Virus record (IMG/VR): IMGVR_UViG_3300049203_000094
Location: 1 to 40,320 of that record
Reading direction: 5' to 3' (one strand)
Origin: a virus
Length of the DNA stretch: 40,320 nt
Of this stretch, positions 3,412-40,320 are shown one piece after another. A program made the translations under genes and the position numbers. The notes beneath the pieces were generated by a model. It was not told the origin of the DNA and did not search any database. It was given only the letters and a program-made list of their open reading frames with translations. Numbering within the stretch: position 1 is the stretch's first letter; each line of letters starts with the position of its first letter.

Positions 3412-3428
3412 GTTTACCTAAAGTTTAC
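3412..3428 (-). promoter_or_regulatory. Paired GTAAAC boxes, 11-base spacing
   Basis: Two GTTTAC hexamers (GTAAAC on the minus strand) start at 3412 and 3423, exactly 11 bases apart, upstream of the gene starting at 3369. The same paired arrangement occurs at 25339-25355. Possible binding site for a phage regulator. Confidence 0.3.
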
Positions 3429-3598
3429 TTTCGAGATTCGAGCTTGGAGATGCGGTCCTCGTGCGAGTCCATGCGCGTGATGACCACCGCAATCTTCACG
3501 TTGAGCTGGTTGAGCGAGTCGTAAATCTTCCAGAGGATGCCCACTCCTCCGGCTACGATTCCAAGAAACGCCCATTCCATAAACTGTGAGAACATCAT
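3425..3598 (-). CDS. Holin-like single-span membrane protein
   Basis: A 57-residue protein with one predicted membrane helix (FMEWAFLGIVAGGVGILWKI) near the N-terminus and a short C-terminal helix with coiled-coil character (VVITRMDSHEDRISKLESRK). Small proteins of this topology directly upstream of spanin and endolysin genes are often holins, which permeabilise the inner membrane and time lysis. There are two possible starts in the ATGATG at 3598; the outer one is used here. It is the first gene of the lysis group after the ejection proteins. Confidence 0.6.
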   Translation of the reverse strand: MMFSQFMEWAFLGIVAGGVGILWKIYDSLNQLNVKIAVVITRMDSHEDRISKLESRK

Positions 3599-3603
3599 CT
3601 CGC

Positions 3604-5727
3604 TTACATCCCGCCGACGTATTCCCGCGGGAGGACGCCATGCTTATTCAAGAGGTTGAGTAGCTTGGCCTTTTCTACGTTGTCGATTTCCTGATTTTGC
3701 GCGATCAGGCCCGCGTAATAGGACCGCTGCATCGGGTCCACGCCCTGAACGTCGTTGACGCTGTAGCCTTCAACCATCGGCACGGGAGACATATTGAGTG
3801 GACGACTCGCGAGGTAGCCCACAGTGCCACCGATCTTCTTCGTGGCCGCAGCGGTGCCGTTGATCGCCTTCGGCAAGATGCCGGATTTATACACGCCGAA
3901 GTTCACCCAGTCCCGAGCCTGTTGCGCCGGAGACCAGAGTTCTTGGTAAGCCTGATTGATGGATGTGCCGGACGGGTTCGGATGCACGGGCATGGCGCGG
4001 ACAAGCGTCTTCAGGTCCGATACCTTCGCGTTGTTCTCAGCGCCCAGCAAGAGCTGGCGGATCTCGGGCCGGAGCTTGTCGAGCTGAGTGATGAACTTGT
4101 AGGGCGAGAACACACCGTCAGTGTGCGAAGCTTCGAGCATCTGCCCCATTTTGTGAGTGCGAAGAAGCTGGAACACTTCCGGGAACTCTTTGGAGAGTCG
4201 CTCGGCGAATTTGACGTTGTTCAGCGTGAAGAGTTTTTTACCGACCTCTTCCGCTCCGCCATTGTCCAAGAGATCGTCGAGGTGATCGACAAACTCTCCA
4301 ACCGTGCGGCCTTTCCCAAGGCGGCCTTTTTTCGACACTTGCCCGATCAGGTCCATCAGGTCGCCATACATCTTGTTTGCGACTTTGCGCTGGGCGAGCA
4401 GGTCTTTCCCGAGCGCCAAGCCCTCTTGCGGAGTCGCAGCGTTCTCAACTGCGGCACGAAGAACGGAGGTCTCTTTGAGGCGGTTCAGTTTGTCGAAGAG
4501 CGGGCCAAAGCCTGCGCGGAGGCGCGGGTCCATGGCGTTGATGGCGTTGCGGAGCTTCGTCTTCGCCTGATCGAGCTGTGCGACGTTGTGGGCGTTCTCG
4601 ATCTGATCGGCCATCTTCATGACAAGCGAGTGCTGCGGATCTCCTTCGAGGAAATTTTCGGCAGCATATCGGCGCATATTGCCGACGATCTGAAGGCGAG
4701 ACGCCTCTCTGACCGGGATCTTCGACGTGTGCCCGTGGAGCTTGTCGTACATTTCCTGGATCGGCTTGTATCGCTCGCGGATCTTCGCCTTGATCCCTTC
4801 GACCATCGCTTCGCCAAGTTCCAAATCTGAGTTGTCGGAGCTTTGGCCAATGATGTTCTTTGCGGCCCGCATGATACCGCCGCGAGCTTTGTTCACCACG
4901 TTGCGAACAGCGTTTCCTGCGCCCGAGGGAGCCTTCGAGAGCGAGGCTTCAAGCCCTTTGGTGATGTAGTCGTCCGAGAGCATCCCAGGCGTTGCTTCAA
5001 CGTCGAGATTCTTCGCCGCGGCCTCAACACTCGGGTTGACCGGGATCGCGGCACCGGGTTCCCCGACCTGCCCCTCCATCTCCATCAAAACTTTTTCGGG
5101 GATCGTTTCCGGGGGGTTCACGACTCCAGCGGAGCCACCCTTTAAAACGTAGTGACCCGTGGCGACCGCTGCGGGAATTGCCGCGCCGATGGCGCCGCCA
5201 ATCGCAGCATTACCGGCTCGCGCCTTCAACTGCAGAGGATCGACTTTCCCAAGCTCATCGCCAGGGTTCGAAAGGCCCGCCGTGAGAGCGCCGATCTTTG
5301 CGCCCTGTCCGACGCCACCGAGAACGGTCTTCGCTTGACCGGCTTTCCCCATGGGAACGCCGAGCATATTGACGAAGCCGAGAGCTTTCCCCAGAAAGGC
5401 AGCGTTCGGGTTTTCTTTTTCGTTCTGCGCGTAGTTTTTCAGGTTCTCGTCACGCCGTTGAACGTAGTCGCCCGAGAGTGGAATGTCCGGCTCTGCGAAC
5501 AAGTTGCCCACGTAGTTGACGAGCGGATCGACAGCCGCGCCAAGGTGCGGAGCGTAGCCGAGCAGAGCGGTGTTGCCCCACTGTTGCACCATCGTCCCGA
5601 GAGCGTTGGCAGAGTCGTCCATCTGATCGCGCTCGACTTCGTCGGCGTAGGTGTCAGGGTTGAACACCTCGTCTTTTTTCTTCGGCAACTCTTCTTCGTC
5701 CGCGTAGGTGTCGGGATTGAAGCTCAC
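3604..5727 (-). CDS. Large internal virion (DNA-ejection) protein
   Basis: A 707-residue protein, third of three consecutive ejection-type genes. It starts at GTG 5727 inside ATGTGA, overlapping the stop of the gene before. The N-terminus carries two copies of a short motif, FNPDTYADEEE and FNPDTYADEVE. Then come Gly/Ala-rich, membrane-active-looking stretches (GNAAIGGAIGAAIPAAVATG) and long helical segments. In T7-like phages such proteins are packed in the capsid and form a channel across the cell envelope for DNA entry. The role follows from position next to the nozzle gene and from composition; I see no muramidase motif. The first motif region matches the C-terminus of the exported protein at 1823-2122. 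Confidence 0.65.
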   Translation of the reverse strand: MSFNPDTYADEEELPKKKDEVFNPDTYADEVERDQMDDSANALGTMVQQWGNTALLGYAPHLGAAVDPLVNYVGNLFAEPDIPLSGDYVQRRDENLKNYAQNEKENPNAAFLGKALGFVNMLGVPMGKAGQAKTVLGGVGQGAKIGALTAGLSNPGDELGKVDPLQLKARAGNAAIGGAIGAAIPAAVATGHYVLKGGSAGVVNPPETIPEKVLMEMEGQVGEPGAAIPVNPSVEAAAKNLDVEATPGMLSDDYITKGLEASLSKAPSGAGNAVRNVVNKARGGIMRAAKNIIGQSSDNSDLELGEAMVEGIKAKIRERYKPIQEMYDKLHGHTSKIPVREASRLQIVGNMRRYAAENFLEGDPQHSLVMKMADQIENAHNVAQLDQAKTKLRNAINAMDPRLRAGFGPLFDKLNRLKETSVLRAAVENAATPQEGLALGKDLLAQRKVANKMYGDLMDLIGQVSKKGRLGKGRTVGEFVDHLDDLLDNGGAEEVGKKLFTLNNVKFAERLSKEFPEVFQLLRTHKMGQMLEASHTDGVFSPYKFITQLDKLRPEIRQLLLGAENNAKVSDLKTLVRAMPVHPNPSGTSINQAYQELWSPAQQARDWVNFGVYKSGILPKAINGTAAATKKIGGTVGYLASRPLNMSPVPMVEGYSVNDVQGVDPMQRSYYAGLIAQNQEIDNVEKAKLLNLLNKHGVLPREYVGGM

Positions 5728-8917: not shown

Positions 8918-11436
8918 ATCTTGAGTTCTCCGACATACGGGAGATCGACTTCCACTTCCCATCCTTCGAGTTCAACGTTCGTGTTGTGCTCGGCATTCTC
9001 GAAGAGGAAGCGTGAAGCGGTGAACTTGCCGTTTGCGAGTTTCGTCTGAGCGGTCACTCCGTGCGTTGCCGATTCCGACACCGCGAGCGACATTTGCGCC
9101 TTGGTGGTATCGCGGACGAAGTTGACCTCTTGCTTGACGGTCAGCGTGTAGTCATTCGAAGGCGTCTCTTGCGTGGAGGCCACGGCCAAGCGGAGCGGCT
9201 GCTTTTTCACCTTGCGATCACCGAACGCGAGCCAAGCCGTGCCCCAGCGGAAGCTGATCGGCTGGTTGTGGTCCTCGTAATCGGTCGCGTGGTTGTTGTT
9301 GATCCGCTTCATGAGGTTGTATTTCACCGCGGAAGAATACGTGGAGTAGCGGCGCTCCACCCACCACAGCTCATCGTTGTAGGTCGCGATCCCGCCCGCC
9401 ATGTTCAGGTCAGACCACTCGTACCAAGCCTGATGGAAGTAGTCGAAGACGAGGATGCGGGAGTTCGCGTTTGCGTAGCTCCTTGAGACCGCCACGGTGC
9501 CAGGAGACACGCCATCGCCCTGAGAAAGGAAAGCGACGTTGTAAGTGTCCGCTGCCGCGGTTGAGCCCTCGCACGGAAGCCAGAGAATGTAATACTGCTT
9601 CGGCACGAAGACATGAGCGCGAGCGCGCTTGAACTTCGGCGTTGCGTAGGTCGAAAGCCCTGCGATCTCGACAATCGGCTTCACGCGGTAGCCGACCTCC
9701 AGGGTCGGGGCTTGCGTTTCGATGATCGTTTCCACTCCGCGATTGGAGAGGAAGAACAAGCGGCCCTGGATTTCCTGGATCGTTGCGTGCGCGAGACATC
9801 CCGTCTCTTTCGAGAGCCATTCTGCTTGCATGTCGAGTTGAGTGGGATCGCCGTAAAGTCGCTTTATGGATTTGTTCTTGAAGATGACGAGCGAGTTCCC
9901 GATCTCTTTCATCCCGGTGATAATGTCGCCGAGATCCGACTCAACCGAGACGGTGAAGCTTCCGTCTGTCGGAAAGCCCTCTACGTTCTCGTAGTCGCCA
10001 AACCACACATCATTTGGACTGACCTGGTTGATGGTGTCGTACTGCCCGAGGCGGTTCGAAGTGGTGAACGGAACGCCCGACACAACGAGTCCGCCCCTGT
10101 AGGTGCAAACGTATCGGCACGCAGGAGGGCGACCGAAGTCGTAATCGGGCTCAGTCAAAGACTCGTTTGCGTTGAGAGTCGCGTCTTCCATGGAGTCGTA
10201 GTAGTAATTTCCCGATGCAACGGCGGGAACGTTCTCGACCAGGTAAAACAGCGCCCCACCGTCTTCGGTGCGCCAAACTTCGATGTACGAATAAAGCGTC
10301 AGCTCTTGGTTGTCTGTGACTGATACCGAGGCATCGAACGTGAGAGTGGTGGCCGTGGTCGCGGTAATTCTTCGCGCCTCATACGTCGAGCCGTTTTTGA
10401 GATAGCACATATCTCCGGTGACGAAGAGGTGGCCCGAGTCCACGTTTATGGTCGTCGCCGACTGTGCGCCGTTGACTGTGCCGTAGGTTCCAACACCGCC
10501 ATAAGCCTCTACCTGAATGTCACGGTTTGCGATGTTCGTGACCGACACCTCCGCAGAGAACGGCCCCCGGATGACGTTGCCCACGTTGTCCACCCGGACA
10601 GCCCGCGCCTTATAGGTCCGCGTGCCCGCGTCGAGCGTACCGGATGAGTGCTGGCTCACGGAGATCGTCGGCGCGTTCAAGCCAGCGTAAAAGCAGCGTT
10701 GCCCGTCGTACTTGATGAGCGCACCGGCTGCGATGTAGAGAACATTGTTCAGCGACGTGTAGCTGATCTCTTCGAAGTCGGTCTGATCCTGGTTTGCGAC
10801 AACGCCAGACAAATCAGAGTAAACGGTGTTCACTTCCGCGGTAACTGCTTCGCGCTCGTAAACCGTGAACGTGATCGACGTGCTCTTTGCGGAGGTCGCG
10901 GGAGTCACATCACAGAACGCAGCCGGGAGAGAGGTTGTGCCGGTGAGCGTACAGGTCCAGCCCGTGATCGCTTCGACTGCGGTCTTCATGTCGGCTAGGG
11001 TTTTCGTCGTTGCTTCTTCGTACCCTTGGCCGAGCGTGTAGGTGAGGACGATGGCACCGTCAACGGTGAGCGTGAGTGCCAGTTGCGAGCTTGCTTCTGC
11101 GTAGGCAATGGCGACCGTTGCCGTTGTTCCCGCCCCACCATAAGAGATCGCAGCCGTGGCTTTCTTGATCCGGTAGAGAGAGTCTTTCTCGATGGCGAGG
11201 AGTTCTTTTTCTTGTTCTGCAGTCGTGGGATTGAGCCTGGTGAACTCGATGAGACCGAATCCGCCGAAGTTGGTGCCTTTGACTTGCGATCCTTTGCGCT
11301 TCTCGATCCGGGGGGCCTCAATTCCGCCCTCCAGCACGCCGTTGTCGATCAAAGATGCGAAATTTTCGGGCCGCGATTGGTCCGAGGAGACGAGATCCAG
11401 CCCCTTGTGATCGAAAAACGGAATGATCTTGCTCAT
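8914..11436 (-). CDS. Tail nozzle (tail tubular protein B-like)
   Basis: An 840-residue beta-rich structural protein. It begins MSKIIPFFDHKGLDLVSSDQ and ends with a beta domain. The middle and C-terminal parts have the repeated strand pattern of podoviral nozzle proteins, with elements such as GLVVSGVPFTTSNR, NSLVIFKNKSIKRLYGDP and EIQGRLFFLSNRGVETI. Residues 90-160 (ISYGGAGTTATVAIAYAEA and after) look like an inserted small beta domain. It follows the adaptor gene with ATGA overlap and precedes the ejection proteins, the T7 gp11-gp12-gp14 order. It would form the distal tail tube. Gene order is strong support; similarity is by pattern. Confidence 0.75.
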   Translation of the reverse strand: MSKIIPFFDHKGLDLVSSDQSRPENFASLIDNGVLEGGIEAPRIEKRKGSQVKGTNFGGFGLIEFTRLNPTTAEQEKELLAIEKDSLYRIKKATAAISYGGAGTTATVAIAYAEASSQLALTLTVDGAIVLTYTLGQGYEEATTKTLADMKTAVEAITGWTCTLTGTTSLPAAFCDVTPATSAKSTSITFTVYEREAVTAEVNTVYSDLSGVVANQDQTDFEEISYTSLNNVLYIAAGALIKYDGQRCFYAGLNAPTISVSQHSSGTLDAGTRTYKARAVRVDNVGNVIRGPFSAEVSVTNIANRDIQVEAYGGVGTYGTVNGAQSATTINVDSGHLFVTGDMCYLKNGSTYEARRITATTATTLTFDASVSVTDNQELTLYSYIEVWRTEDGGALFYLVENVPAVASGNYYYDSMEDATLNANESLTEPDYDFGRPPACRYVCTYRGGLVVSGVPFTTSNRLGQYDTINQVSPNDVWFGDYENVEGFPTDGSFTVSVESDLGDIITGMKEIGNSLVIFKNKSIKRLYGDPTQLDMQAEWLSKETGCLAHATIQEIQGRLFFLSNRGVETIIETQAPTLEVGYRVKPIVEIAGLSTYATPKFKRARAHVFVPKQYYILWLPCEGSTAAADTYNVAFLSQGDGVSPGTVAVSRSYANANSRILVFDYFHQAWYEWSDLNMAGGIATYNDELWWVERRYSTYSSAVKYNLMKRINNNHATDYEDHNQPISFRWGTAWLAFGDRKVKKQPLRLAVASTQETPSNDYTLTVKQEVNFVRDTTKAQMSLAVSESATHGVTAQTKLANGKFTASRFLFENAEHNTNVELEGWEVEVDLPYVGELKI

Positions 11437-12377
11437 AGCGAGGAATCACCGAAGTCCATCAAGTCGGTTGAGAGAATCGTCACGTGCTGAGTGTCGTGGT
11501 CAATGTCGGCGAAGCCTTGAACGACTTGCGCGGCTGCGGCCTCGGCGAGCAGACGTTTTTTGTCTTCCAAGACCGATCCATCGCGCCCGAGAGCGCACGC
11601 AATCATGAAATTGACGAGATACGGCTCACACGAAGCCGGAAGCTCGGGCAGATTCGTCGAATCTTCGCCAAGGACAATGTAATTCGACGTGGTGATCGTC
11701 TCGCCAGTGTCCGCAGTGTGCGCGCCACCCGTGAGAGTCACGACTCCAGTCCCGGAGTTGATCGAATCATACTCGACACCCGCCATCACCTGCTCGCCTG
11801 AGCGGTCAACGACGGAGAGGAAGTTATAATTCGCGTACTGCGAGCCCAGATCGAGCGTTGTGAGGTTCGAAAGCGTCAGCGCGGAGAGCGTCGGAGTAGA
11901 AAACGTGCGCGATGCGATCCCGGCCCTGCGAATGTCGACGTATTTCCGGCGCCGAACGTAGGTGATGCGAAGAGTGGAGCTTGCAGACGCAGCCGCAGGC
12001 CGCAAAAGGATCTGCTCACCGCTTCTCACGTAGTAGCCGGGGTTCGATGCGGGCAAAGCACCACGCTCGGAGAGCGAAATTTGCTCAAGCTTCGCGTAGT
12101 TCTGTGCCGATCCGTCGTGCGACCACCACACCTCATGGATGTGGCCGTCGAAACAGTCGTCGGGGATGTCATAAGCTTCCTGATTCGCGACACAAGATTG
12201 GATCTCTTCGTCGAGAAAGAATCTCGGATGCGTCTGAACGATCTTTCCATGGATGAGCGTCACCGCTTCGTTGAGCCAGCGAACGAAAGTGTCTTGAGGA
12301 ATCCCCACCGTTGCGGAGTAGTCCTTGTTCAAGCTCTCGTCCCTGGCATCTGCGATGAGAAGTTCCGCTCGGCGCAT
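11433..12377 (-). CDS. Head-to-tail adaptor (tail tubular protein A-like)
   Basis: A 314-residue protein with an N-terminal helical region (FVRWLNEAVTLIHGKIVQTH), a conserved-looking EAYDIPDDCFDGHIHEVWW segment, a beta-rich centre, and a C-terminal helix (PASCEPYLVNFMIACALGRD). Tail tubular A proteins of T7-like phages form a ring under the portal and have this helix-beta-helix layout. Its stop overlaps the start of the nozzle gene. The function is inferred from length, layout and the adjacent nozzle. Confidence 0.68.
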   Translation of the reverse strand: MRRAELLIADARDESLNKDYSATVGIPQDTFVRWLNEAVTLIHGKIVQTHPRFFLDEEIQSCVANQEAYDIPDDCFDGHIHEVWWSHDGSAQNYAKLEQISLSERGALPASNPGYYVRSGEQILLRPAAASASSTLRITYVRRRKYVDIRRAGIASRTFSTPTLSALTLSNLTTLDLGSQYANYNFLSVVDRSGEQVMAGVEYDSINSGTGVVTLTGGAHTADTGETITTSNYIVLGEDSTNLPELPASCEPYLVNFMIACALGRDGSVLEDKKRLLAEAAAAQVVQGFADIDHDTQHVTILSTDLMDFGDSSL

Positions 12378-18776: not shown

Positions 18777-19988
18777 TTATGTCGAGAGACCCGTGATGAC
18801 ACCTTGGAACGACGGGATGATGACGTTCTGGTAGTAACCGCCGTAGCGAGCGCCGTAAGTGTCGGAGCTTGCCGAACGGAGGAAAACCGTACCGTCGTCA
18901 TCGAACCAGCCGAAGTCCGGGCGGTGATGAGCTTCGATGTAGTTCGAGTTCAAAGCGTAGAGGCGATCATCTTCACAGAAGCGTTCCGGGAAGATCCCGA
19001 TGGCGCCCGCTGCCGACATGAACTCCAAACCTTTGAACGAGATTTTGCCTTTGAGATCAGACGAACGCGGCTCGACCACGTACTGCTTTTGATCTTCGAG
19101 CAAGTTCATGATCTTGCGGTACTGCGTGAAGGACGTGAGGATCATGTCGGGCACTTTGCCGCTTTTGCGTTGGATCTCCAGCATGAGCTGGTTGATCTTA
19201 TCGACAGAGATACCTGCCGAAGCTGCGTCTTGCTGAGTGGCCTGCCAACGACGACCGACCGTGATGCCGTAGAGCGAACCCGACGTTGCATCGCAGACGT
19301 ACTTCAGACCGTGCGGGTCCGCGTCTTTCGAGTTCTGCATGTAGACGGTTTTTGCCGCTGCATCCATCGTCAAATCGACCGAGCCCGAGATACGAGCGAG
19401 CGTCACCGTGCGAGTTGCCGGAGCAACTGCCGTGATTTCCCACACGTTCGACGTGCTGTAGGCGTTGTTCGACGAACCGATGTTGACGTAGTCGTTCTCT
19501 TCGAAGTTCGACTCTTTCCAGGTCGTCGTGCTGATGACGATGGTCGGAGCCGCTGCCGTGCCGCCTGCGTTTGCTGCAGTCGAAACGCCGAGGACGCCGT
19601 CTGCGTTGCCGAAGAGGATTCGGCTTGCGTTGCGAGTCCACGTCTCGACCGTGCGCTGAACGACGTGCTTCGTACCTTGAACGAATGCACCTTCGTCCGA
19701 CATCGACGCCTTGATCGTCTCGCGGTCGATTTCACAAACCGCGTAGACTTTCTTCGACGTGATCGTCATGTCGCCGTAGTCAGCCGGGTTTGCAGTCGGG
19801 AGGCTGCCCGAACCAACACCGCCCGCGAAGGTCGTGGGAACCGGTTCTTTGATTTCTTTGCCGGTGAACTTGTAGTTCTTCTTCATCTTGCCGAGAAGAA
19901 CGTTCGCCGAGTTATAGACGTTGTCCGAGAGCTTGCCGTACTTGCTCTTAAACAGCGCGCTTGCATCTGTCAGGTTGAAATTTGCCAT
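18777..19988 (-). CDS. Major capsid protein
   Basis: A 403-residue protein in the canonical place after portal and scaffold genes, with GGAG before the ATG. The N-terminus is helical (ASALFKSKYGKLSDNVYNSA), followed by a segment with VYAVCEIDRETIKAS, as in the E-loop and spine-helix region of HK97-fold capsids. The C-terminal part has the typical DMILTSFTQYRKIMNLL, then LKGKISFKGLEFM and a final beta strand with FLRSASSDTYGARYGGYYQ. There is an inserted beta-rich stretch around residues 140-225. I infer a shell-forming HK97-fold protein that assembles around the acidic scaffold encoded just upstream. No protease gene is seen, and cleavage of the N-terminus is not indicated. Confidence 0.85.
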   Translation of the reverse strand: MANFNLTDASALFKSKYGKLSDNVYNSANVLLGKMKKNYKFTGKEIKEPVPTTFAGGVGSGSLPTANPADYGDMTITSKKVYAVCEIDRETIKASMSDEGAFVQGTKHVVQRTVETWTRNASRILFGNADGVLGVSTAANAGGTAAAPTIVISTTTWKESNFEENDYVNIGSSNNAYSTSNVWEITAVAPATRTVTLARISGSVDLTMDAAAKTVYMQNSKDADPHGLKYVCDATSGSLYGITVGRRWQATQQDAASAGISVDKINQLMLEIQRKSGKVPDMILTSFTQYRKIMNLLEDQKQYVVEPRSSDLKGKISFKGLEFMSAAGAIGIFPERFCEDDRLYALNSNYIEAHHRPDFGWFDDDGTVFLRSASSDTYGARYGGYYQNVIIPSFQGVITGLST

Positions 19989-21236: not shown

Positions 21237-21460
21237 ACTTCCGCCTTTTCTCTGATCCACTTCCGCAAGACTTGGTGCCATGCGGGTTTGTAGGTAATGA
21301 GTCGGCGGGTTTTCTCATCAACGTAGGCCACGACGCGCTGGCCTTTGTCCGTCTCGATCCAGTCGCCAGCCTTGATGGGGCCAACGACTTCGAGTTTTGG
21401 AACTGTCTTCCAGATCGCACGGGCCGTGGCCCTGCGAAGTCTGCGCGAAAGTCTGCTCAT
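21206..21460 (-). CDS. Small basic protein between portal and scaffold
   Basis: An 84-residue, Arg/Lys-rich protein (MSRLSRRLRRATARAIWKTV). Its centre looks like a small SH3-like beta barrel: VVGPIKAGDWIETDKGQRVV, then AYVDEKTRRLITYKPAW. The ATG overlaps the portal stop (ATGA), and its end overlaps the scaffold start by 31 bases. It may bind nucleic acid or the portal. Function unknown. Confidence 0.6.
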   Translation of the reverse strand: MSRLSRRLRRATARAIWKTVPKLEVVGPIKAGDWIETDKGQRVVAYVDEKTRRLITYKPAWHQVLRKWIREKAEVCRARFLRAA

Positions 21461-23637
21461 CCCAAGAGCCCCGGCATCGGTTCACCTGTAGGGACGGGCG
21501 TTTCGGGCATCATGTCTTGCGGCACTTGCTCGGGCGGCTGCATGTCGGAGGGAATCATCCCCTCTCCAGGCATCATCGGTGCTTCATCCATCGGTGGTGG
21601 TTGTGCGGGGTCCATCGGTGCATTGGGATCGCCCTGCGGAGGCGGGGGCGGAGGCGGTGCCATCGTGAAGAACATCGGGAAGTTCGGCATCGTCTGAAGG
21701 ACTTGCTGCAATCCCATGTTGGTCTCGGCGGCTTGGACGATCAGCATTTCGGTGGCCATGACGTGATCTTTCATCGTCTGGCGGACGCTGTCGGGAGTCT
21801 TCTTGGATTTGAAGGACGGGTCTTGCATCGCCTTCACGTGGATCTTCCAGTGAACGATGCAGTCTTCCCAAATCTCGGGCGCTTCCACTTGCTCGTTGTT
21901 GAGGATCTTCTCGTTCTCGTATTCCGCAGCACGAGCAGCCGAGGCCGCTTCGTCCATGAACTTCTCCGATTGCCCCATGTCGAGCATCTCGACGACCTGT
22001 TCCTGCGGGAACATGTTGGGGAATCGTTCGGCCATGTCGAGGATGTACTGAGTGCGGGCGGCCTTCGAGTCCGGCAAGGCCGACGAGTTCTGAATGCGAA
22101 TGTCAAACGAGCGCGAGAGATGCTCGGGCGAGAAGTTCGTGGCGATCCATGACTTGTTCTGTCCGAGGACGAGCATCGTCCGCTTGTCTGACTTGTCGTA
22201 GAACTGGCCTGCGACTTTGAGCTTCTTCTCTGCGCTTCTGCGCTGGAACTCGTTGTAGTTCGCAATGCGGGCGTTCGCGATCTGTGCTTCCTGCTCGGCC
22301 AAGAACTGTAGCGCCACGCCTGCTTTGATGCCCGGAGGAGGTTCGCCGGAAGTCACGTCACCCAAGCCTGAGAGCTGGCGGATCTCGTTCTTCAGGTTCT
22401 CACGGAACTCGAAGACCTCCCGAGGAGTCGGGTTCTGTTGCGCGAGCACGGGCGGCTGTGAGCCCTGGTACTGTGCAATCGTAATGTCGTTGCCGAGTGA
22501 TTCGAGCTTCACCGAGCCCTTCGGCACGAACCACTTGGGGTGCGCGACGAGTGCCTGGTTCCGAATAATCATATTGGTGAGGTTCGAATACTGAGCCGAG
22601 AGCCCCTTGATGTCCTGATAGAAAGACACCGCGTGCATCTCGCCAGGGATCTCTTTGCAGGGCAGGCGTTCGAACGAGAAGTCGCCGTGGTCGTACTTGA
22701 AGTCTTGGTTCTCCAAGATCGCGTCTTTGGTGAACGTGATCCATCGGCCTTTCGGCATGTACTTGCAGGGCTTGAACTGAAACGTCCACTTGACGGTTTC
22801 GTGCTGGAGCTTTTCGTCTTCGAGTTTTGCGATGTTGTAGAACGAGGCGTCCGAGTCGGCCTTGATCTTCGATGCAAGCTTCGGGTTCTCGCGCTTCAGC
22901 TCCTCCGTCTCCACGCGCTCGCGAATGAACGCATAGCCAGACTCGTCGTAGGAGTCTTTCTTCTGAAGGAACACGTTGACCGGAAGGAGCACCTTCACGT
23001 CCACGTCACCGATCTTCACGGCGCCCGCCACCTTGATGACCTCGCCCTTTTCGTCTTTCTGTTCGTTCCCCTCTTCGTCTAGAAGCGGGATCTCTTCGTC
23101 ATCGTCAGGAGAGTCCGGGTGGTTACCACCCAGGTCTTCGTTCCACGGATAATCGAGGTAGCCTTCGCCCGTGATCTCCGAGATGCGAACGCACATCTGA
23201 TTCTTCGCCTCATAGCGGCGGGTGTAGTCGATGTGATCGAGGCACTGCTTGGCGATCTTGGAGGAAACCTTGTCCTGATATTCGTCGTTGGTCGGAAGGA
23301 CCTGAACGCCAGGGCGGAACTTCATGAGCTGAGAGACGCGCTGTTCGGTCGCTTGCGAGAGAAGATTCACCACGAGCTTCGGCGAGAACTTCGCTCGCTC
23401 TTGTTCGCGGTCGCGGTTCCCTGAGCGGGTGTCTTGCGTCTGGTATTGGATACCTTTGTATCGGGCCAGGTTGTGCTTAATGTCGCGGAGTCGGTCTTCG
23501 TTTTCTTTTTCGAGATGCTCGATCTCAGCGTTGAGCCACTGGAGAACGGCCTTCTCATCCTTCAGGTCGATGGCCCAGAAAGGCTTGTCGTTCTTCTTCT
23601 TACCATCGGTGGACAGATCGTCGAACGAGTCGGCCAT
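21457..23637 (-). CDS. Portal protein
   Basis: A 726-residue protein which would form the dodecameric ring for DNA packaging and the head-tail joint. The N-terminus is MADSFDDLSTDGKKK. The body shows the long portal pattern of mixed helices, including FSPKLVVNLLSQATEQRVSQ, FRPGVQVLPTNDEYQDKVSS and IVGEG-like SEITGEGYLDYPW. A long helix region is followed by a C-terminal tail rich in Pro and Met (MAPPPPPPPQGDP and after). The size fits podoviral portals of the long type with a barrel. It is followed by the scaffold and capsid genes. The call rests on size, gene order and general pattern. Confidence 0.78.
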   Translation of the reverse strand: MADSFDDLSTDGKKKNDKPFWAIDLKDEKAVLQWLNAEIEHLEKENEDRLRDIKHNLARYKGIQYQTQDTRSGNRDREQERAKFSPKLVVNLLSQATEQRVSQLMKFRPGVQVLPTNDEYQDKVSSKIAKQCLDHIDYTRRYEAKNQMCVRISEITGEGYLDYPWNEDLGGNHPDSPDDDEEIPLLDEEGNEQKDEKGEVIKVAGAVKIGDVDVKVLLPVNVFLQKKDSYDESGYAFIRERVETEELKRENPKLASKIKADSDASFYNIAKLEDEKLQHETVKWTFQFKPCKYMPKGRWITFTKDAILENQDFKYDHGDFSFERLPCKEIPGEMHAVSFYQDIKGLSAQYSNLTNMIIRNQALVAHPKWFVPKGSVKLESLGNDITIAQYQGSQPPVLAQQNPTPREVFEFRENLKNEIRQLSGLGDVTSGEPPPGIKAGVALQFLAEQEAQIANARIANYNEFQRRSAEKKLKVAGQFYDKSDKRTMLVLGQNKSWIATNFSPEHLSRSFDIRIQNSSALPDSKAARTQYILDMAERFPNMFPQEQVVEMLDMGQSEKFMDEAASAARAAEYENEKILNNEQVEAPEIWEDCIVHWKIHVKAMQDPSFKSKKTPDSVRQTMKDHVMATEMLIVQAAETNMGLQQVLQTMPNFPMFFTMAPPPPPPPQGDPNAPMDPAQPPPMDEAPMMPGEGMIPSDMQPPEQVPQDMMPETPVPTGEPMPGLLG

Positions 23638-23901: not shown

Positions 23902-23919
23902 CCCATAACGACATTCAAA

Positions 23920-23930
23920 GTTTACGTAAG
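23920..23930 (-). promoter_or_regulatory. GTAAAC box upstream of the portal operon
   Basis: A GTTTAC hexamer (GTAAAC on the minus strand) at 23920-23925 lies within the near-palindrome GTTTACGTAAG, just upstream of the leftward gene starting at 23901. The hexamer also occurs, paired, at 3412, 8381 and 25339. Confidence 0.25.
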
Positions 23931-24000
23931 TATATCTTCGGGAAACTTCATTTTCTTTTTTTTCTTGTCAAAGGCGATGAACTTGTCAGGCAATTGACCT

Positions 24001-24072
24001 ATGAGTGAACACAGCATCGAGATGATCTGTATTTCCATCATCGTCATCAGCATGATTTGGAGCGCCAAATGA
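24001..24072 (+). CDS. 23-residue membrane-like leader peptide
   Basis: A short frame whose product is MSEHSIEMICISIIVISMIW plus three residues: one hydrophobic segment and little else. Its TGA overlaps the ATG of the next plus-strand gene (ATGA), and both products begin MSEH. It could be a coupled leader or a tiny membrane peptide. The upstream ribosome site is weak. Confidence 0.35.
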   Translation: MSEHSIEMICISIIVISMIWSAK

Positions 24073-24275
24073 GTGAACACAAGCCGATGAAAGATAAGTT
24101 TGAAAATGTCCTCGGAGAGCGACACACCATTGTCATCACCCGAGAACTCAAAGCCAAGATCATGCGTCTCTCGCGCATCCACAAAAAGGACGTGAACGAG
24201 CGCATCCGTGAGCGCATCGAGGAAGAAGTGAACGCTGAGCTTCAGCTCTTGGAGCCCGAATCAGCCGCAAGCTGA
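24069..24275 (+). CDS. Ribbon-helix-helix-like small DNA-binding protein
   Basis: A 68-residue protein on the plus strand within the leftward late region; GGAG sits seven bases before the ATG. After a short leader, RHTIVITRELKAKIMRLSRI and HKKDVNERIRERIEEEVN give the strand-helix-helix pattern of Arc/MetJ-type repressors. It converges on the metallopeptidase gene with a 34-base overlap. A regulator transcribed against the late operon could act on the nearby divergent region at 23902-24000. The family assignment is by pattern only. Confidence 0.6.
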   Translation: MSEHKPMKDKFENVLGERHTIVITRELKAKIMRLSRIHKKDVNERIRERIEEEVNAELQLLEPESAAS

Positions 24276-24598
24276 TTCAGAATGGCGATCATTTGAAACA
24301 CGAAGCTGACAGTGGTTTGGCAGTCCATCTCACGCGCCTGCTCGTCGAGGATTTCAAAGAGTCCTGTGCGAGATTGGTGGCCATGTCTCGCCTCATGAAT
24401 CAACGTTTCGTAGAGATTGAAGCCTTCAAGGTCATCGTCCACAATGATGAGTCGCTTACCGTAGTAACACCGGCCATCACAGCCCGTCTCCTCGGCGTAG
24501 CCGACCCTGAACTTCACCCGAAACTCAATGTCCCCTAGCGTGAACTTGATCGGAGGCTTCGGCTTGCGCTTCGTTGACGGTCGTCCGCGCTTGCTCAT
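24242..24598 (-). CDS. Small HExxH zinc metallopeptidase-like protein
   Basis: A 118-residue protein with the zinc-binding motif His68-Glu-Ala-Arg-His72 in YETLIHEARHGHQ, and an acidic helix after it (LDEQAREMDCQ) that could supply the third ligand. The N-terminus is basic (MSKRGRPSTKRKPKPP). The layout resembles small phage and plasmid metallopeptidases of the minimal-gluzincin kind. The ATG overlaps the stop of the phosphoesterase gene (ATGA). Being co-transcribed with head genes it might process a virion or host protein; no substrate can be named. Confidence 0.65.
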   Translation of the reverse strand: MSKRGRPSTKRKPKPPIKFTLGDIEFRVKFRVGYAEETGCDGRCYYGKRLIIVDDDLEGFNLYETLIHEARHGHQSRTGLFEILDEQAREMDCQTTVSFVFQMIAILNQLAADSGSKS

Positions 24599-25302
24599 GG
24601 CATCTCTCCATTCCATCTGCCTTGTTTATTGAGCGGCATCGGAATCAGCCGCGGGAATGAGTCGATGATCATGAGCACGCCGACGATTCCCTTTTCCAGC
24701 GTGTTGCGACCGTAGGCCATCGCCAGAGACTTGTGATCCACGAGGCAGCCCGCGTGCGCGTCGAAGTAGAGGCCGGTGGGATTCGCCCAATAGGTCACGT
24801 GAAAGCGAGAATGAAAGTGTCCTTGGATCGCCGACATGGATTGACGCTGAGAGAGTTTGCCCTGCCCGGAGGATTTGCCGTGGTGGAAATAGACTTGGCT
24901 GCCATTCGGAAGACGAAGCGTAAAATCAAAATGCCAGTTCCACCCTTTCGGGGCGTTGATCTGTTGGCGATATGGAACGATGAGGTGACGAGGGATGCCC
25001 GCGGTCTTCGCCTTGCGATAGACAAGACTGCCATGATTCGATTCCAGCACATCGACCTTGGGGAAGAGCTTGAACACCTCGCGGAGGAAGCGGATCGCGC
25101 AGGAAAGCTCATCCGAGGCGCTCGGAAGATCCGGGTCACTCTCATGGTAGGAAAGCGCGTGATGATCGACTTCGTCTCCGAGACAGACGACTGCATCGGG
25201 CCGGTACTGTAGCTTCACGCACTTCAGAAACCGGAGCGCGTCCGGGTGCTGGTAGGGAGCGTGCATGTCAGGAATCACGAGGACTCGTTGATTCTTCGCC
25301 AC
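24595..25302 (-). CDS. Calcineurin-like metallophosphoesterase
   Basis: A 235-residue enzyme of the metallophosphoesterase superfamily, with all main metal-binding blocks visible. These are IPDMHAP (D-x-H), CLGDEVDHH (GDxxDH), ESNHGS (N-H), FHHGK (His) and QGHFHSRF (G-H-x-H). Members include nucleases and phosphodiesterases; phage versions often sit near replication or packaging genes. The GTG start at 25302 lacks a clear ribosome site, so the start is uncertain. Upstream are paired GTAAAC boxes and the RNA-like region. Substrate unknown. Confidence 0.8.
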   Translation of the reverse strand: MAKNQRVLVIPDMHAPYQHPDALRFLKCVKLQYRPDAVVCLGDEVDHHALSYHESDPDLPSASDELSCAIRFLREVFKLFPKVDVLESNHGSLVYRKAKTAGIPRHLIVPYRQQINAPKGWNWHFDFTLRLPNGSQVYFHHGKSSGQGKLSQRQSMSAIQGHFHSRFHVTYWANPTGLYFDAHAGCLVDHKSLAMAYGRNTLEKGIVGVLMIIDSFPRLIPMPLNKQGRWNGEMP

Positions 25303-25338: not shown

Positions 25339-25355
25339 GTTTACTTAATGTTTAC
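25339..25355 (-). promoter_or_regulatory. Paired GTAAAC boxes, 11-base spacing
   Basis: Two GTTTAC hexamers start at 25339 and 25350, exactly 11 bases (one helical turn) apart, as at 3412-3428. They lie 37 bases upstream of the phosphoesterase start and next to the structured region. Confidence 0.3.
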
Positions 25356-25360
25356 TTAGG

Positions 25361-25631
25361 AGAGGCGGGCCAGTCGCTACTCTGGCATCAGGCCTCGCAG
25401 CCTGAACCCGGGCGGCTTTCCTTTCATATGACCGCCGAACCCTGCTTAATGAGGTTGTCCCTTGTCGGTGCGTGTCTCCAGTGGCAGCGGCTGACCTAGT
25501 TTCTACTAGCTCCCGTTCACACCACAGCTTCCCACGCCGCCGCCTCAAGGAATCGCTCTCTACACCAAAGGCACAGGGCCTCCGGTTTCTCTTACCCGAG
25601 GACAGAGGTAAGTCCGTCCCGAGAGCGATTC
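25361..25631 (-). ncRNA. Candidate structured RNA, no recognised family
   Basis: There is no credible reading frame in 25303-25629. Instead there are many perfect stems. GAATCGCTCTC at 25550-25560 pairs with GAGAGCGATTC at 25621-25631 over 11 bases. Inside that stem are CTTACC/GGTAAG (25591-25596 with 25607-25612) and a two-part hairpin ACC-GGC/GCC-GGT (25564-25586), making a three-way junction. Further hairpins lie to the left: GCCAG/CTGGC (25369-25386), CAGGC/GCCTG (25389-25404), GGCGG/CCGCC (25411-25436), and CTAGT/ACTAG with a 4-base loop (25496-25509). The strand is uncertain; minus is given because neighbours are read that way. It is not a tRNA, tmRNA or riboswitch class that I recognise. 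Confidence 0.5.
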
Positions 25632-25848
25632 ATTCAAACGACGAACCAGGGCACGGCTCGTCCACGTACTTTCGAAACCAAAACTCCGTTCTCTCTTGCT
25701 CGTATTCGCACGAGCATGGGGGCTGTGGCTGCTCCAGCGGGCCGCCGCACGACACGAGCGCCCCGAGGAAGAACGAGCCAAAGACCACGCCAATGAAGAA
25801 CGGTGCGGCCTCGCTCAACCCCAGCCCCACAACATCACGCGGGCGCAC
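25630..25848 (-). CDS. Small lipoprotein, unknown
   Basis: A 72-residue lipoprotein: a hydrophobic segment (APFFIGVVFGSFFLGA) ending in the lipobox LVSC (Cys34), then GGPLEQPQPPCSCEYEQ, rich in Pro and Cys. The leader is longer than usual, so a later start may be used. Its start lies 34 bases inside the gene for a short membrane peptide in another frame. Its stop lies in the first stem of the structured region. The overlap with a membrane peptide resembles a spanin pair, separate from the one at 2649-3165. Confidence 0.5.
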   Translation of the reverse strand: MRPRDVVGLGLSEAAPFFIGVVFGSFFLGALVSCGGPLEQPQPPCSCEYEQERTEFWFRKYVDEPCPGSSFE

Positions 25849-27070: not shown

Positions 27071-28480
27071 TCATCCAGCTCCGAGGAACTCGTCTGATGT
27101 GATGCCTTCGAGTTCGGGGAAGTCATCTTCGGGCCTCGCTCCGCGGAAGTTTTCAAGCAAGTGCTCAGGCACGGGCTCTGATTCATTCTCCAACACGTAG
27201 TGGGCTGCCGCAAATAGATACCGGGTGTCATCAATCAGGTGATCGTTTCCTTTTGGTATCTTTCCGCTGTCATCTTTTATGTAATTCGACATTTCCCAAA
27301 GCCATTTTTGGCAGCGATCCGATGCGATGATCTTCCCGCGCAGGAGTGCGTCCTTGATGAGGGAAATGCCGGTCTCTTTCTTGTTCGCGTTCTTCTCTGT
27401 CGCTCGGTACGCGTAAGCATCGCCGAAGCGGTCATACATTTCCGTGATGAACCACTGTGCAGCTTCGTCCGCTACGAGATCCCACTCAGCCCGGCCTTGG
27501 CCAAGCTCTGCCAGCTTCTCTTGGATCACGCTTCCGATCAGACGCGTGGAGGTTTCCGATTGTCTAGTCTCGTAAATCTCATCGAGCAAGTACCAGACTT
27601 TCGTGTACGGATTGAGAGCCGCGAAGAGTGTGGCGTGGCAGGTGGTCGTGCCGGGATCGGTGATCGCATACCACTGGAGTTTCTTGAGATCCTTCCGCAT
27701 GGAAGCCATGACTTCCGCGTGAGGTGTGAGCTTGAACGAGTGGATCATCGGGAAGATCGAGTTCTTTCCTCCGCGGACCCGTCTCGCCATGTATTCCCGT
27801 TCCCACACGTCGCCATCACCGCGGGCGTAGAGTTCGGCTTTCTTCTTCGCAAGCCATGCGGGGCTGTTGTGCGGAGCCGAGCTGCTCGGGAAATTGAAGT
27901 AGCGTTTGTCTGGATCGCGCTGGAACTCGTCTTCCACTTGCGTGAAGTGGTTGTCCACCTCGGGCGGTGTTCCGAAGATCAAGAGATGCGCGTGCTGCAA
28001 GTTCGGGTTCATTGCATCGTAGAACTCAGGGCGGAAGTCTTTGAACTCATCGTAAATGAACAGCGACTTCGGCGGAGGTTTGACACCGCGGTACTGGTTC
28101 ACGTTGTCCGATCCGTCGCACTTAACAAAGCTTCCATTGTCGTAGGTGATCCGCATCTCGGTGTCGTTCGTGGACGACTGAAAGCCCGGTGCGAAGTCCT
28201 GCAATCGACGTGAGGCCCAGAGGATCTCCTTCGCTTGCTTCTGCTCGGGCGCGAAGTAATACGAGTGCGTGCCTGGGTAGAGAAGTGCCGAACGTGTCAG
28301 CGCGTAGATGATGAACTCAGTCTTGCCCCAATTTCGGCCACAGACCGCCATGATCTCCTTCGCTCTGTCGTCGAAGAGAGTGCGGCCTAGCTCGGCCTGC
28401 CCTGGGTGTGGCGTCCAGTCTTGGTGCAAAGCTTCGATGACCTCGGCGTAGCGAATGTCATCAGGCGTAGGCTCAGTCAT
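27071..28480 (-). CDS. terL: Terminase large subunit
   Basis: A 469-residue packaging motor. The ATPase domain shows Walker A at residues 48-54 (GRNWGKT), Walker B with Asp144-Glu145 (SLFIYDEFKDF) and the coupling motif FGTPPE around 169-174. The C-terminal RNase H-like nuclease domain shows AITDPGTTTCHATLF, LVADEAAQW and NDHLIDDTRY, whose aspartates can bind metal. It pumps genomic DNA into the prohead through the portal and cuts it. The gene starts 8 bases before the end of the preceding gene. All main motifs are present and the length is normal. Confidence 0.92.
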   Translation of the reverse strand: MTEPTPDDIRYAEVIEALHQDWTPHPGQAELGRTLFDDRAKEIMAVCGRNWGKTEFIIYALTRSALLYPGTHSYYFAPEQKQAKEILWASRRLQDFAPGFQSSTNDTEMRITYDNGSFVKCDGSDNVNQYRGVKPPPKSLFIYDEFKDFRPEFYDAMNPNLQHAHLLIFGTPPEVDNHFTQVEDEFQRDPDKRYFNFPSSSAPHNSPAWLAKKKAELYARGDGDVWEREYMARRVRGGKNSIFPMIHSFKLTPHAEVMASMRKDLKKLQWYAITDPGTTTCHATLFAALNPYTKVWYLLDEIYETRQSETSTRLIGSVIQEKLAELGQGRAEWDLVADEAAQWFITEMYDRFGDAYAYRATEKNANKKETGISLIKDALLRGKIIASDRCQKWLWEMSNYIKDDSGKIPKGNDHLIDDTRYLFAAAHYVLENESEPVPEHLLENFRGARPEDDFPELEGITSDEFLGAG

Positions 28481-31302: not shown

Positions 31303-31491
31303 TCAATCCCACCCGTAGCAGCCGCAGTAGTATTCGTCCGTCTCTTCGTCAGGCTTCTCTTTGAAGAACGCGAGCTTGTACTCCCGGTCTTTCTCCACCT
31401 CCACCTCGGACTTGCACCCGCGGTAGTAAGCGCAGCGGGCTTTGCGCGGCTCTGTCGTTTCGGTCTTCTCGGTTTCGGTGTTCACAACCAC
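31303..31491 (-). CDS. Small Cys-containing acidic protein
   Basis: A 62-residue protein, Glu/Lys-rich, with four cysteines (RCAYYRGCKS and YYCGCYGWD) which could bind a metal. The start is GTG 31491 or GTG 31485; the latter overlaps the stop of the duplicated gene (GTGA). Unknown function. Confidence 0.5.
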   Translation of the reverse strand: MVVNTETEKTETTEPRKARCAYYRGCKSEVEVEKDREYKLAFFKEKPDEETDEYYCGCYGWD

Positions 31492-31628
31492 ACCCCCAGG
31501 CCGACGTTTCGTCCGAAGAGCCGAACCCAGGCCACGTAATAACCTCGCCCGTTTGTTGCGAAGTGCGCCCGTTGCGGCACGCGGTAGTTTTCTGCGAATA
31601 GCTCCAGTCTTCGGAATCGCTTGCTCAT
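31482..31628 (-). CDS. Duplicated 48-residue protein, copy 2
   Basis: Begins MSKRFRRLELFAENYRVPQR and ends in a Gly/Val/Leu stretch. It differs from copy 1 (31813-31959) at only a few residues, all near the N-terminus. GGGGGAAG precedes the ATG. The basic and aromatic composition (RGYYVAWVRLFGRNVGLGVW) suggests a tight small fold. Unknown function. The two copies with the gene between them form a duplicated unit. Confidence 0.6.
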   Translation of the reverse strand: MSKRFRRLELFAENYRVPQRAHFATNGRGYYVAWVRLFGRNVGLGVWL

Positions 31629-31822
31629 GCTTCCCCCTTGTCTCGTTCTTCCAATTCGTCCTCGTACGCCGTTGTCCGGTAGCCGGTCTCCACCACTTCG
31701 ATCAGAAGGAGCTGTCCGTGCTTCGGGTGCGGCTTCAGTGTCTCGCCCGTGGCGAGCTTCGCGGGCTCGATCACGCGGACCTCCTCGCCTGTCCATTTGA
31801 TGACTAGCTTCTTCACAACCAC
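31625..31822 (-). CDS. Small protein between the duplicated genes
   Basis: A 65-residue protein from GTG 31822 (or GTG 31816). It has a beta-rich centre (KLVIKWTGEEVRVIEPAKLA, HGQLLLIEVVETGYRTTA) and an acidic end. Its start overlaps the end of copy 1 and its stop overlaps the start of copy 2. The downstream gene after copy 2 also starts in GTGGTTGTG, inherited from the duplicated border. Unknown function. Confidence 0.55.
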   Translation of the reverse strand: MVVKKLVIKWTGEEVRVIEPAKLATGETLKPHPKHGQLLLIEVVETGYRTTAYEDELEERDKGEA

Positions 31823-31959
31823 ACCCCCAGGCCGACGTTTCGACCGAAGAGACGGACCCAGGCCACGTAGTAGCCGCGCCCGTTTGTTGCAAAGTGCGCC
31901 CGTTGCGGCACGCGGTAGTTTTCAGCGAACAGCTCCAGCTTCTTGAATCGGATGCTCAT
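31813..31959 (-). CDS. Duplicated 48-residue protein, copy 1
   Basis: Begins MSIRFKKLELFAENYRVPQR; otherwise the same as copy 2. It is the first gene after the promoter at 32055-32081, behind a leader of about 85 bases. The DNA of the two copies is nearly the same, including the bases around the stop, and differs mostly at third positions and at the N-terminus. This shows a fairly recent tandem duplication. Confidence 0.6.
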   Translation of the reverse strand: MSIRFKKLELFAENYRVPQRAHFATNGRGYYVAWVRLFGRNVGLGVWL

Positions 31960-36951: not shown

Positions 36952-38115
36952 TTATCCTTGTTGTTTTTTCGTTGTGGTGTCGGCGTGGTGTCGTAGCGGT
37001 GTCACTTTTGATGCCGAAAGACCCATGTCTTTGGCGAATCCTTGGAGGTGGCGAGCGTTCAGTTCCGCATAGATTTGCGTTGTCTGGATGCTCGAATGTC
37101 CGAGGATCTCTTGCAGAGCTTTCAAGTTGCCGGTCTTGAGCGCGAAGTTTGCTCCGAAGGAATGGCGAAGGCCGTGGCGGTTCACTTCCACGCCCGCTTT
37201 TTTACAGATCCAGTCGTGCATCTGGCGAACGGTCTGATGGACCATGTGCGAGCCCGCGGGATTGGTCAGGACGAAGTCGCTGGCCTTGCCGTAAGGCGTT
37301 TGGCTGCGCCACCACTCCATGACCTCCGCAAGTTCTCTGGCCATCGGGATCACCCGCTCAGAGTCGTGGCCTTTCTTCGTGCGCTTCACAAGCTTCTTGC
37401 CCGCCCGGTCATAGATCCAAGCGAACGTAATCGTCTTGTTGATGAAGTCGAAGTCCTGCCAGCGAAGCCCAATGATCTCCGACACGCGAGCGCCCGTCAT
37501 GACCATGAGGCTTGCATAAGCGTAGGCGCGGCCCGGAACGCCCTTCACCTCTTGCGAGGCGCGGAGGAAGGCAATCATGTCCTCTTCCGAGAGGATCTTC
37601 TTCGGGAGCTTCGGAGCCGTGGACTCCCGCACTCCGCGGCGGTTCTTCCTGACGAGCCGGACGGGGTTGTGAGTGACCCCCGGAATCTCCTCATCGAGAG
37701 CGTATTCAAAGAGGCCCGAGATCAGAGCCTTGATCTTTTTTTTGGTCGACGGGGACGCTTTCGAGCCGTTGGCCAGAGTGACGTTCGCCAAGACCTTCTC
37801 GATCTTCTTCGGTGTCACTTTGTTGGCCGGGATCGCACCAAGCTCCGGGAGCACGTGGTGTCGAAGATGGCTCTCTTCGTTAACGTAGGTGTTCGCTCCG
37901 TGCTCGGCCATGCGCCGATTCATGAAGCCGATAGCAAGCTCTTGAACTACCGGGATTTCCGATTGCTCGATCTGGATTTCCAGATTGGCCTTCGAGTGGT
38001 TCTTCTTCGCCTTCATTTGGGCATACCAGTCATCAGCCTCTCGCTTAGACAGGTAGCGCGGTGAGTTCACCGCTTTTCCATTGATGCGAATAGTCCGCCG
38101 ATAGGTCTTAGCCAT
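36952..38115 (-). CDS. int: Tyrosine recombinase (phage integrase)
   Basis: A 387-residue site-specific recombinase that would integrate the phage into a host tRNA-Leu gene. The N-terminal arm-binding region is about residues 1-50; a SAM-like core-binding domain follows (FMNRRMAEHGANTYVNEESH). The catalytic domain has Arg210 (TGARVSEIIGLRW), Lys248, His314-x-x-Arg317 (HGLRHSFG), His340 (LGHSSIQTTQ) and Tyr349 (QIYAEL). All are present. ATG 38115 overlaps the end of the excisionase-like gene. The last codons carry three GGTGTC units that act as DNA sites. The attP core follows directly. Confidence 0.95.
   Translation of the reverse strand: MAKTYRRTIRINGKAVNSPRYLSKREADDWYAQMKAKKNHSKANLEIQIEQSEIPVVQELAIGFMNRRMAEHGANTYVNEESHLRHHVLPELGAIPANKVTPKKIEKVLANVTLANGSKASPSTKKKIKALISGLFEYALDEEIPGVTHNPVRLVRKNRRGVRESTAPKLPKKILSEEDMIAFLRASQEVKGVPGRAYAYASLMVMTGARVSEIIGLRWQDFDFINKTITFAWIYDRAGKKLVKRTKKGHDSERVIPMARELAEVMEWWRSQTPYGKASDFVLTNPAGSHMVHQTVRQMHDWICKKAGVEVNRHGLRHSFGANFALKTGNLKALQEILGHSSIQTTQIYAELNARHLQGFAKDMGLSASKVTPLRHHADTTTKKQQG
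36976..37012. repeat. Right arm-type repeats of attP, within int
   Basis: Three GGTGTC units at 36976, 36987 and 36998, each exactly 11 bases apart, within the last codons of int. The segment 36987-37012 matches 36691-36716 at most positions. Phasing at one helical turn suggests cooperative protein binding. Confidence 0.6.
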
Positions 38116-38383
38116 GTTGCTCGACGTTCCCATTCAAATATTCGGCCACGAAGCGGCGGGTGGTCTTCCAGCGTTTGCCGAGGCGGAAGCCTTTGAGCCC
38201 TCGCTCGATGTGCAGCTCGATGGATTTGTAATGACAGCCGAGGAGCTGGGCAGCTTCGGCCTTGCCGATCAAGCCCGGAATGTCCTCCGGCACCACCTCG
38301 ACAACCTGGCGGCTGTCGCGGATTTGTCTGCGAGTGGTGGCTTGATGCCAGTCCCTCGCGATTGTCGTCTTCTTCTCTCCCAT
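38108..38383 (-). CDS. xis: Excisionase-like MerR/HTH_17 protein
   Basis: A 91-residue protein with a helix-turn-helix of the excisionase kind: GLIGKAEAAQLLGCHYKSIE, then HIERGLKGFRLGKRWKTTRR. This matches the MerR-like wing used for DNA bending. It lies immediately upstream of the integrase, with an 8-base overlap. It would steer the integrase toward excision. ATG 38383 is chosen; a GTG at 38392 is also possible. Confidence 0.75.
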   Translation of the reverse strand: MGEKKTTIARDWHQATTRRQIRDSRQVVEVVPEDIPGLIGKAEAAQLLGCHYKSIELHIERGLKGFRLGKRWKTTRRFVAEYLNGNVEQHG

Positions 38384-40060: not shown

Positions 40061-40320
40061 CACACCACCTCGGACTTCGCAGCCCAGAACGGCACGTCGA
40101 TTTCCTCGATCTCTTGCGTGTAGCCGGGGAAGTCGCCCGACATGAAGCAATTGGCGAGCGTTGTGAGAATGCGGCGGCGAGTGGTTTCCGCTCTCGTGAT
40201 CGCTTCGCGTGAGAGTTGGAAAACCTTGATCGCATAGGGCGCGTCTGTTTCTTGAACCGCCAGGTAGTAGCCATTCACGGGTGAGCCAGTGATGGATTCG
40301 ATGACCGAAATGTAGTGAGC
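40060..40320 (-). CDS. RecE-type exonuclease, C-terminal part
   Basis: The remaining 86 codons plus stop of the exonuclease whose start is at 726. The frame enters at 40320 with AHYISVIESITGSPVNGYYL, which joins exactly to FGYDFSA from the left end, and ends AAKSEVV before the TGA at 40062-40060. The segment HYISVIE followed by a beta strand and PYAIKVFQLSREAITRAE is the usual end of this nuclease family. Its stop overlaps the start of the ERF gene. An internal ATG at 40278 is not the real start. Confidence 0.82.
   Translation of the reverse strand, partial: AHYISVIESITGSPVNGYYLAVQETDAPYAIKVFQLSREAITRAETTRRRILTTLANCFMSGDFPGYTQEIEEIDVPFWAAKSEVV
40187..40320. repeat. Right copy of the terminal overlap
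   Basis: Repeats positions 1-129 but keeps five additional bases (40313-40317) that hold the exonuclease gene in frame, so this copy is probably the correct one. Confidence 0.9.

Follow-up and report, generated by a model that had tools for sequence, protein, structure and literature searches.

A conserved, structured non-coding RNA, probably of a new kind, in phages

The window, by which we mean the whole 40,320-nt stretch of DNA that was analysed (positions 1 to 40,320 of the IMG/VR record IMGVR_UViG_3300049203_000094), is a 40.3-kb phage genome of the temperate type, with an integrase (36952–38133), a Cro/C1-type HTH protein (973–1485), an O-like replication initiation protein and an Erf-type annealing protein. 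Since positions 1–126 are identical to 40187–40312 at the other end, the contig probably represents a genome that is complete and was assembled as a circle. The late operon is on the minus strand and includes the genes for terminase (27071–28480), portal (21457–23637) and capsid protein (18777–19988). About 80 IMG/VR contigs (L008–L092) share the capsid protein, most of them also portal and terminase; named phages are only remote relatives. A 148-nt direct repeat, 89% identical, is found at 31481–31628 and 31812–31959. In L023 (1647–1729) and L046 (2021–2103), arrays of GTTTAC units with an 11-bp period lie inside a replication-initiator-like gene and are a possible iteron origin.

The RNA described here lies in this operon between a spanin-like ORF, for which no PHROG match was found, and a phosphoesterase gene (Table 1). 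Next to it are tandem direct repeats of the GTTTACTTA type, which occur 11 bp apart at two genome sites, the second being 3412–3431 (plus strand); a single related site is at 23920–23928. The 20-bp tandem consensus has an expectation of 0 in shuffles. In L107 (9140–9158), which is part of a 39.5-kb phage (whole record G034), such a tandem also directly precedes an RHH-like gene. The repeats are a candidate operator and are probably separate from the RNA. The minus-strand late operon also harbours, on the plus strand, a small ORF (24069–24275) that is RHH-like and has no Pfam match. This ORF, which looks like a moron, has a codon score of 0.377 and follows an AT-rich stretch containing GTTTACGTAAG.

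A reading made from the sequence alone had proposed that 25361–25631 is a candidate structured RNA in a gap without a credible gene. The absence of a gene was upheld: the sole long frame has a codon score of −0.8, as compared with 0.1 to 0.5 for real genes, and open runs of its length occur in 25% of shuffles. Readthrough of the UGA stop of the spanin-like ORF into an open run of 94 codons was considered and rejected (codon score −0.76; such a length is found in 25% of shuffles), as was any other protein reading of the gap, since codon scores, Pfam, PHROGs and tblastn were all negative. The accompanying statement that genes otherwise overlap in this genome was an overstatement; at 23902–24241, for instance, the junction is not tight and a plus-strand ORF is present. 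The proposed coordinates were right in that a structured RNA is present there, but the true RNA is longer, extending from about 25659 to 25362 on the minus strand, and most of its conserved core is found 3′ of the three-way junction by which the gap had drawn attention.

The 11-bp closing stem of this junction (25550–25560 with 25621–25631) is exactly as had been described and encloses two stems on the minus strand. When both strands were folded against shuffled controls, as had been suggested, the 92-nt element gave −41.2 kcal/mol on the minus strand (z −4.48; 0 of 200 shuffles as good) and folded more weakly on the plus strand (z −3.17); for the whole 358-nt stretch z was −2.0 (minus) and −1.2 (plus). 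Against this stands that in an approximate minus-strand scan of the genome (20 shuffles per window) the element ranks only about 10th of 1258 windows, most of those above it being coding sequence, and that of perfect 11-bp inverted repeats within 100 bp 1.2 are expected by chance in this genome and 1 was found. Fold energy alone, therefore, proves little. Positions 25580–25590 in the apical part of the element are a perfect 11-nt complement of 25226–25236 in the phosphoesterase gene, which is probably due to chance.

Table 1. Features of the RNA and of its immediate surroundings in the window
Feature	Position	Strand	Basis or remark
Upstream neighbour: short lipoprotein-like ORF, possible o-spanin	25630–25848	minus	translation; lipobox LVSC
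Whole structured non-coding RNA, about 300 nt, P0 hairpin to P1 3′ strand; ends approximate	25362–25659	minus	homology to G034/L136, L137, L138 and G008; element order kept
P0, 5′ hairpin GAGCC/GGUUC; overlaps the end of the spanin-like CDS	25643–25659	minus	equivalents in three members
Conserved UGAAUGAA before P2; in the window it includes the UGA stop codon of the ORF upstream	25629–25636	minus	UGARUGAA in 4 of 5 members
P2 5′ strand (the closing stem first noticed)	25621–25631	minus	pairs with 25550–25560
P2 apical domain, hypervariable, with the two enclosed stems of the junction and a possible pseudoknot	25561–25620	minus	MFE fold
P2 3′ strand	25550–25560	minus	fold and pair counts
Near-invariant block UUGAGGCGGCGGCGUGGGAAGCUGUGG (P1 5′, P3 5′, internal loop, P4 5′)	25522–25548	minus	alignments A5 and A7; degenerate pattern finds true members only
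P1 5′ strand GAGGCGG	25540–25546	minus	pairs with 25362–25368; compensatory UGAGCGG/CCGCUCA in G008
P3 5′ strand GCGUG	25533–25537	minus	GCGUG/CACGC vs GCGUU/AACGC
Conserved internal loop, 5′ side GGAAGCU	25526–25532	minus	same in four members, GGAAUGCU in G008
P4 hairpin GUGG/CCAC, variable loop (stem 25525–25522 with 25484–25481)	25481–25525	minus	GGAG/CUCC in L137
Conserved internal loop, 3′ side UGGAGA	25475–25480	minus	U[G/A/U]GAGA in all members
P3 3′ strand CACGC	25470–25474	minus	pair counts
Variable domain between P3 and P6	25387–25469	minus	sequence and length vary by member
P6 hairpin GCCAG-AGUAGCGA-CUGGC, conserved octaloop	25369–25386	minus	GCCGG-AGUCGCGA-CCGGC, GCCAG-CCUCGCGA-CUGGC etc.
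P1 3′ strand CCGCCUC	25362–25368	minus	pair counts, RNAalifold
Tandem GTTTACTTA repeats, 11-bp spacing, directly 3′ of the RNA	25339–25358	plus	candidate operator
Downstream neighbour: metallophosphoesterase	24595–25302	minus	phrog_221 (E 3.7e-60) and Metallophos

Homologues were not found by blastn of the gap RNA against some 80 capsid-related phages, phage records and plasmid records, and a single-element covariance model of 106 nt matched only the window among the loci searched at first. L107 was brought in by a scan for the tandem GTTTACTTA motif. The model built on the window's 106 nt alone (R1) matches G034 over its full length (E 9.5e-6; 1922–2027, minus strand), and alignment of the two revealed a near-identical block, UUGAGGCGGCGGCGU.GGAAGCUGUGG, directly after P2 and a hairpin GCC[A/G]G-AGU[A/C]GCGA-C[U/C]GGC toward the 3′ end. 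A degenerate DNA pattern derived from the block retrieved six viral records, 6 of 6 being homologues, which represent three distinct RNAs besides that of the window (G034/L136; L137 = L140; L138 = L141 = L142, the whole record of L141 being G042). A second model, built on four members (R2), finds a divergent fifth copy in G008 (E 1.9e-4), the closest relative of the window phage that was found; this copy also has P6 and the P1 3′ strand, both of which are absent from R2. A third model that includes G008 yielded no further members among 59 records. Weak R2 matches in L156–L158 (E above 0.01) were rejected, none of the family landmarks being present in the sequence inspected.

It should be noted that all members come from metagenomic contigs, that only five distinct RNAs were found, and that transcript data are lacking. 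Among the records searched of the approximately 80 contigs related to the window phage by capsid, portal or terminase, only G008 has a copy, and three of the four further members are from phages whose proteins resemble those of the window phage only in patches. Indeed, the phages of the window, G034, G042 and L137 have few proteins in common, those of the first three being mostly a tail-region protein and the small product of 3428–3643. No phage protein common to all five was found; L137 and G008 are fragments and could hide one. The sole hint as to the host is a 27.6% match of the L137 terminase to that of a Silvanigrella phage, in which no copy of the RNA was found in the 33 kb of the record searched. 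Nor was there one in 97 Campylobacterota genomes, a search made without positive control in a phylum not chosen from evidence on the host.

In the common architecture, P1 closes the P3–P4 arm, a variable domain and the P6 hairpin, and the P2 arm, preceded by P0, is on the 5′ side. P1, P2, P3, P4 and P6 are kept in five of five members, together with the internal loop (GGAAGCU / U.GAGA) and the P6 octaloop. The covariation in homologues that had been named as a check was found: of 30 pairs counted, 14 show changes on both sides, 96.7% of the cells are paired in the standard way, and the covariation score is 0.553 versus 0.241 in shuffles (0 of 500 as good); controls with slid partners gave 36–44% pairing. 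Two-sided changes occur in six of the nine pairs counted in P2 (five members) and in two pairs of P4. P0 was omitted from the count; it was recognised in every member but G008, with equivalents such as CUCGG/CCGAG and CCCGA/UCGGG and two-sided change in 5 of 5 pairs. Stems were placed by hand on the five members, one inserted U (G008 loop) and one A (L138 P6 loop) being dropped beforehand. Because hand placement leans toward structure, plain MAFFT alignments were given to RNAalifold as well, which without aid predicted P1, P3, P4 and P6 in A5 and the outer part of P2 in A6. There are irregularities: the register of P4 is shifted in L137, and L137 and L138 each have one broken P6 pair. The minus strand is the RNA strand, since it has 10 G-U cells versus one C-A cell. 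A conserved protein frame, which would have spoken against an RNA, is not there: none of the reading frames stays open across the RNA in every one of the five members, and the frame that is long in the window and G034 meets stops within a few codons after the near-invariant block in L137 and L138. The apical domain of P2 differs in length and sequence in every member, and the pseudoknot proposed earlier falls inside it and is not conserved. As a separate observation, AGGCG of the invariant block (25540–25548) has two possible partners, CGYYU upstream of P2 and the P1 3′ strand; both alternatives are kept in four members, and a switch is possible.

Comparison with known RNAs yielded no relative, in agreement with the earlier statement that the RNA matches no known class. 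Scanning the whole window against Rfam 15 with cmscan gave 0 matches at the gathering threshold, and for the gap and the four other members (E up to 5–10) only the tRNA beside the L137 copy was above it. ARAGORN found no tRNA or tmRNA in the window; the one tRNA-Asn is beside, not within, the L137 copy. The GOLLD, ROOL and OLE families gave no Rfam covariance match, so that membership in them is not met. GOLLD and ROOL, large ornate RNAs of bacteria and phages, are larger (no alignment was made), the present RNA having only about 300 nt and matching no Rfam family. They are like it in being structured, non-coding, phage-borne, without a fixed downstream gene and of unknown biochemical role (in part PMC12286853). 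With the pRNA of phi29 the present RNA shares that it is phage-encoded and structured with a multi-way junction and that the window copy is near terminase and portal, but it has no Rfam match to this type, its neighbours vary and two members adjoin an integrase, and membership is again not met. Structured RNAs in mobile elements are also known among phage-borne regulatory RNAs tied to a single gene, for instance from the AbiF system and from TnpB/IscB (omega/reRNAs); these accompany their own protein gene, whereas the present RNA has no common neighbour. No Rfam match to omega/reRNA was obtained, and among the neighbouring ORFs listed no IscB/TnpB nuclease or Abi gene was recognised (without profile search). 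A description of the RNA was not found in the literature, coverage of which was incomplete.

Sequence comparison thus leaves us highly confident that the gap encodes a member of a real, conserved RNA family, present in no fewer than five distinct phages, and as far as Rfam 15 and the literature show this is probably a new, uncatalogued kind of viral RNA; to this extent the proposal of a novel structured RNA has held. That unused sequence or a decayed gene merely folds by chance would be compatible with a fold energy that is not extreme for this genome, but conserved sequence and covarying helices in phages with few common proteins, and the lack of a conserved frame, make it scarcely conceivable, and the homologues may be said in effect to refute it. 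Inverted repeats could also merely resemble RNA stems in an element acting as DNA, such as a recombination, origin or packaging site. Two members are near an integrase and the tandem GTTTACTTA repeats are directly beside the window copy, yet the confinement of the G-U cells to one strand, the conserved loops and the compensatory changes in five separate helices, including the long-range P1, render this very improbable.

More is to be said for function at the RNA level, where the neighbours matter. Downstream of the copies in G034 and G042 are an Xis-like ORF and then an integrase, an order (G034, L143 1–2000; G042, L164 about 9900–11600) shared by phages that are otherwise rather unlike and whose integrases are 45% identical; the L137 copy is followed by tRNA-Asn and then terminase, and the G008 copy is among small ORFs several kb upstream of terminase. 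The sequence-only reading had considered a leader of the phosphoesterase, which cannot be maintained because that gene is absent beside the other members (its relatives L002–L007 were also without such an element), and a packaging-linked RNA, which loses support since there is no tie to terminase or portal, two members being just upstream of the Xis-like gene. Its third suggestion, an independent phage RNA, fits the five distinct members with their covarying helices, differing neighbours and lack of an Rfam match. An intercistronic element that acts in cis on processing, stability, termination or translation of adjacent genes, with AGGCG as a possible switch, is still rather unlikely than improbable: the RNA is within operons on the same strand, the alternative pairings persist, RNAalifold also predicts the outer P2 pairing, and the Xis-like gene and integrase follow twice. 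But the constant class of downstream gene by which a cis-regulatory leader would be recognised is missing, only those two sharing it; changes in the outer P2 pairing, which cannot be discerned in G008, are all one-sided, while P1 has compensatory ones; and a processing site of 300 nt, with conserved internal loops, would be a large one. For a catalytic or virion-structural RNA, that is, a self-processing ribozyme or an RNA that is packaged or assembles particles like phi29 pRNA, one can cite the compact, near-invariant core and the proximity to terminase in the window and L137; it is nevertheless improbable, as Rfam ribozymes and phage pRNA are unmatched and two members adjoin integrase rather than packaging genes.

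An RNA whose core is near-invariant and whose periphery is free, and which has no constant partner gene, is best read, by inference, as acting in trans with a partner supplied by the host. The host is preferred as the source because no phage protein common to all five phages was found. That it is a trans-acting phage non-coding RNA binding a host factor is inferred from context only, without transcript data, and we hold this with just even confidence. The RNA would be made within longer operon transcripts, since its neighbours are on the same strand and no promoter or terminator of its own was seen; it would then fold independently and act in trans, the P3/P4 internal loop and the P6 octaloop being the places where contact with a host protein or RNP is likely, and P2, P4 and the variable domain a periphery that may evolve freely. 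This does not mean that a cis role is excluded everywhere, the order RNA, Xis, integrase in two members leaving room for one there. More tentatively still, it is possible that this is a new phage RNA class, perhaps catalytic or imitating part of a host RNP, which spreads between temperate phages that are unrelated but share one host lineage, and which controls a host machine via the internal loop and the octaloop.

The newness refers to the RNA class (0 matches among 4227 Rfam families); the function may prove to be of a known sort. The consensus, the covariation and the five members define the RNA sufficiently for a wider search of genomes and for tests at the bench. Few phage RNAs of such size and conservation are known, and several of the earlier ones turned out to be parts of unsuspected machines.
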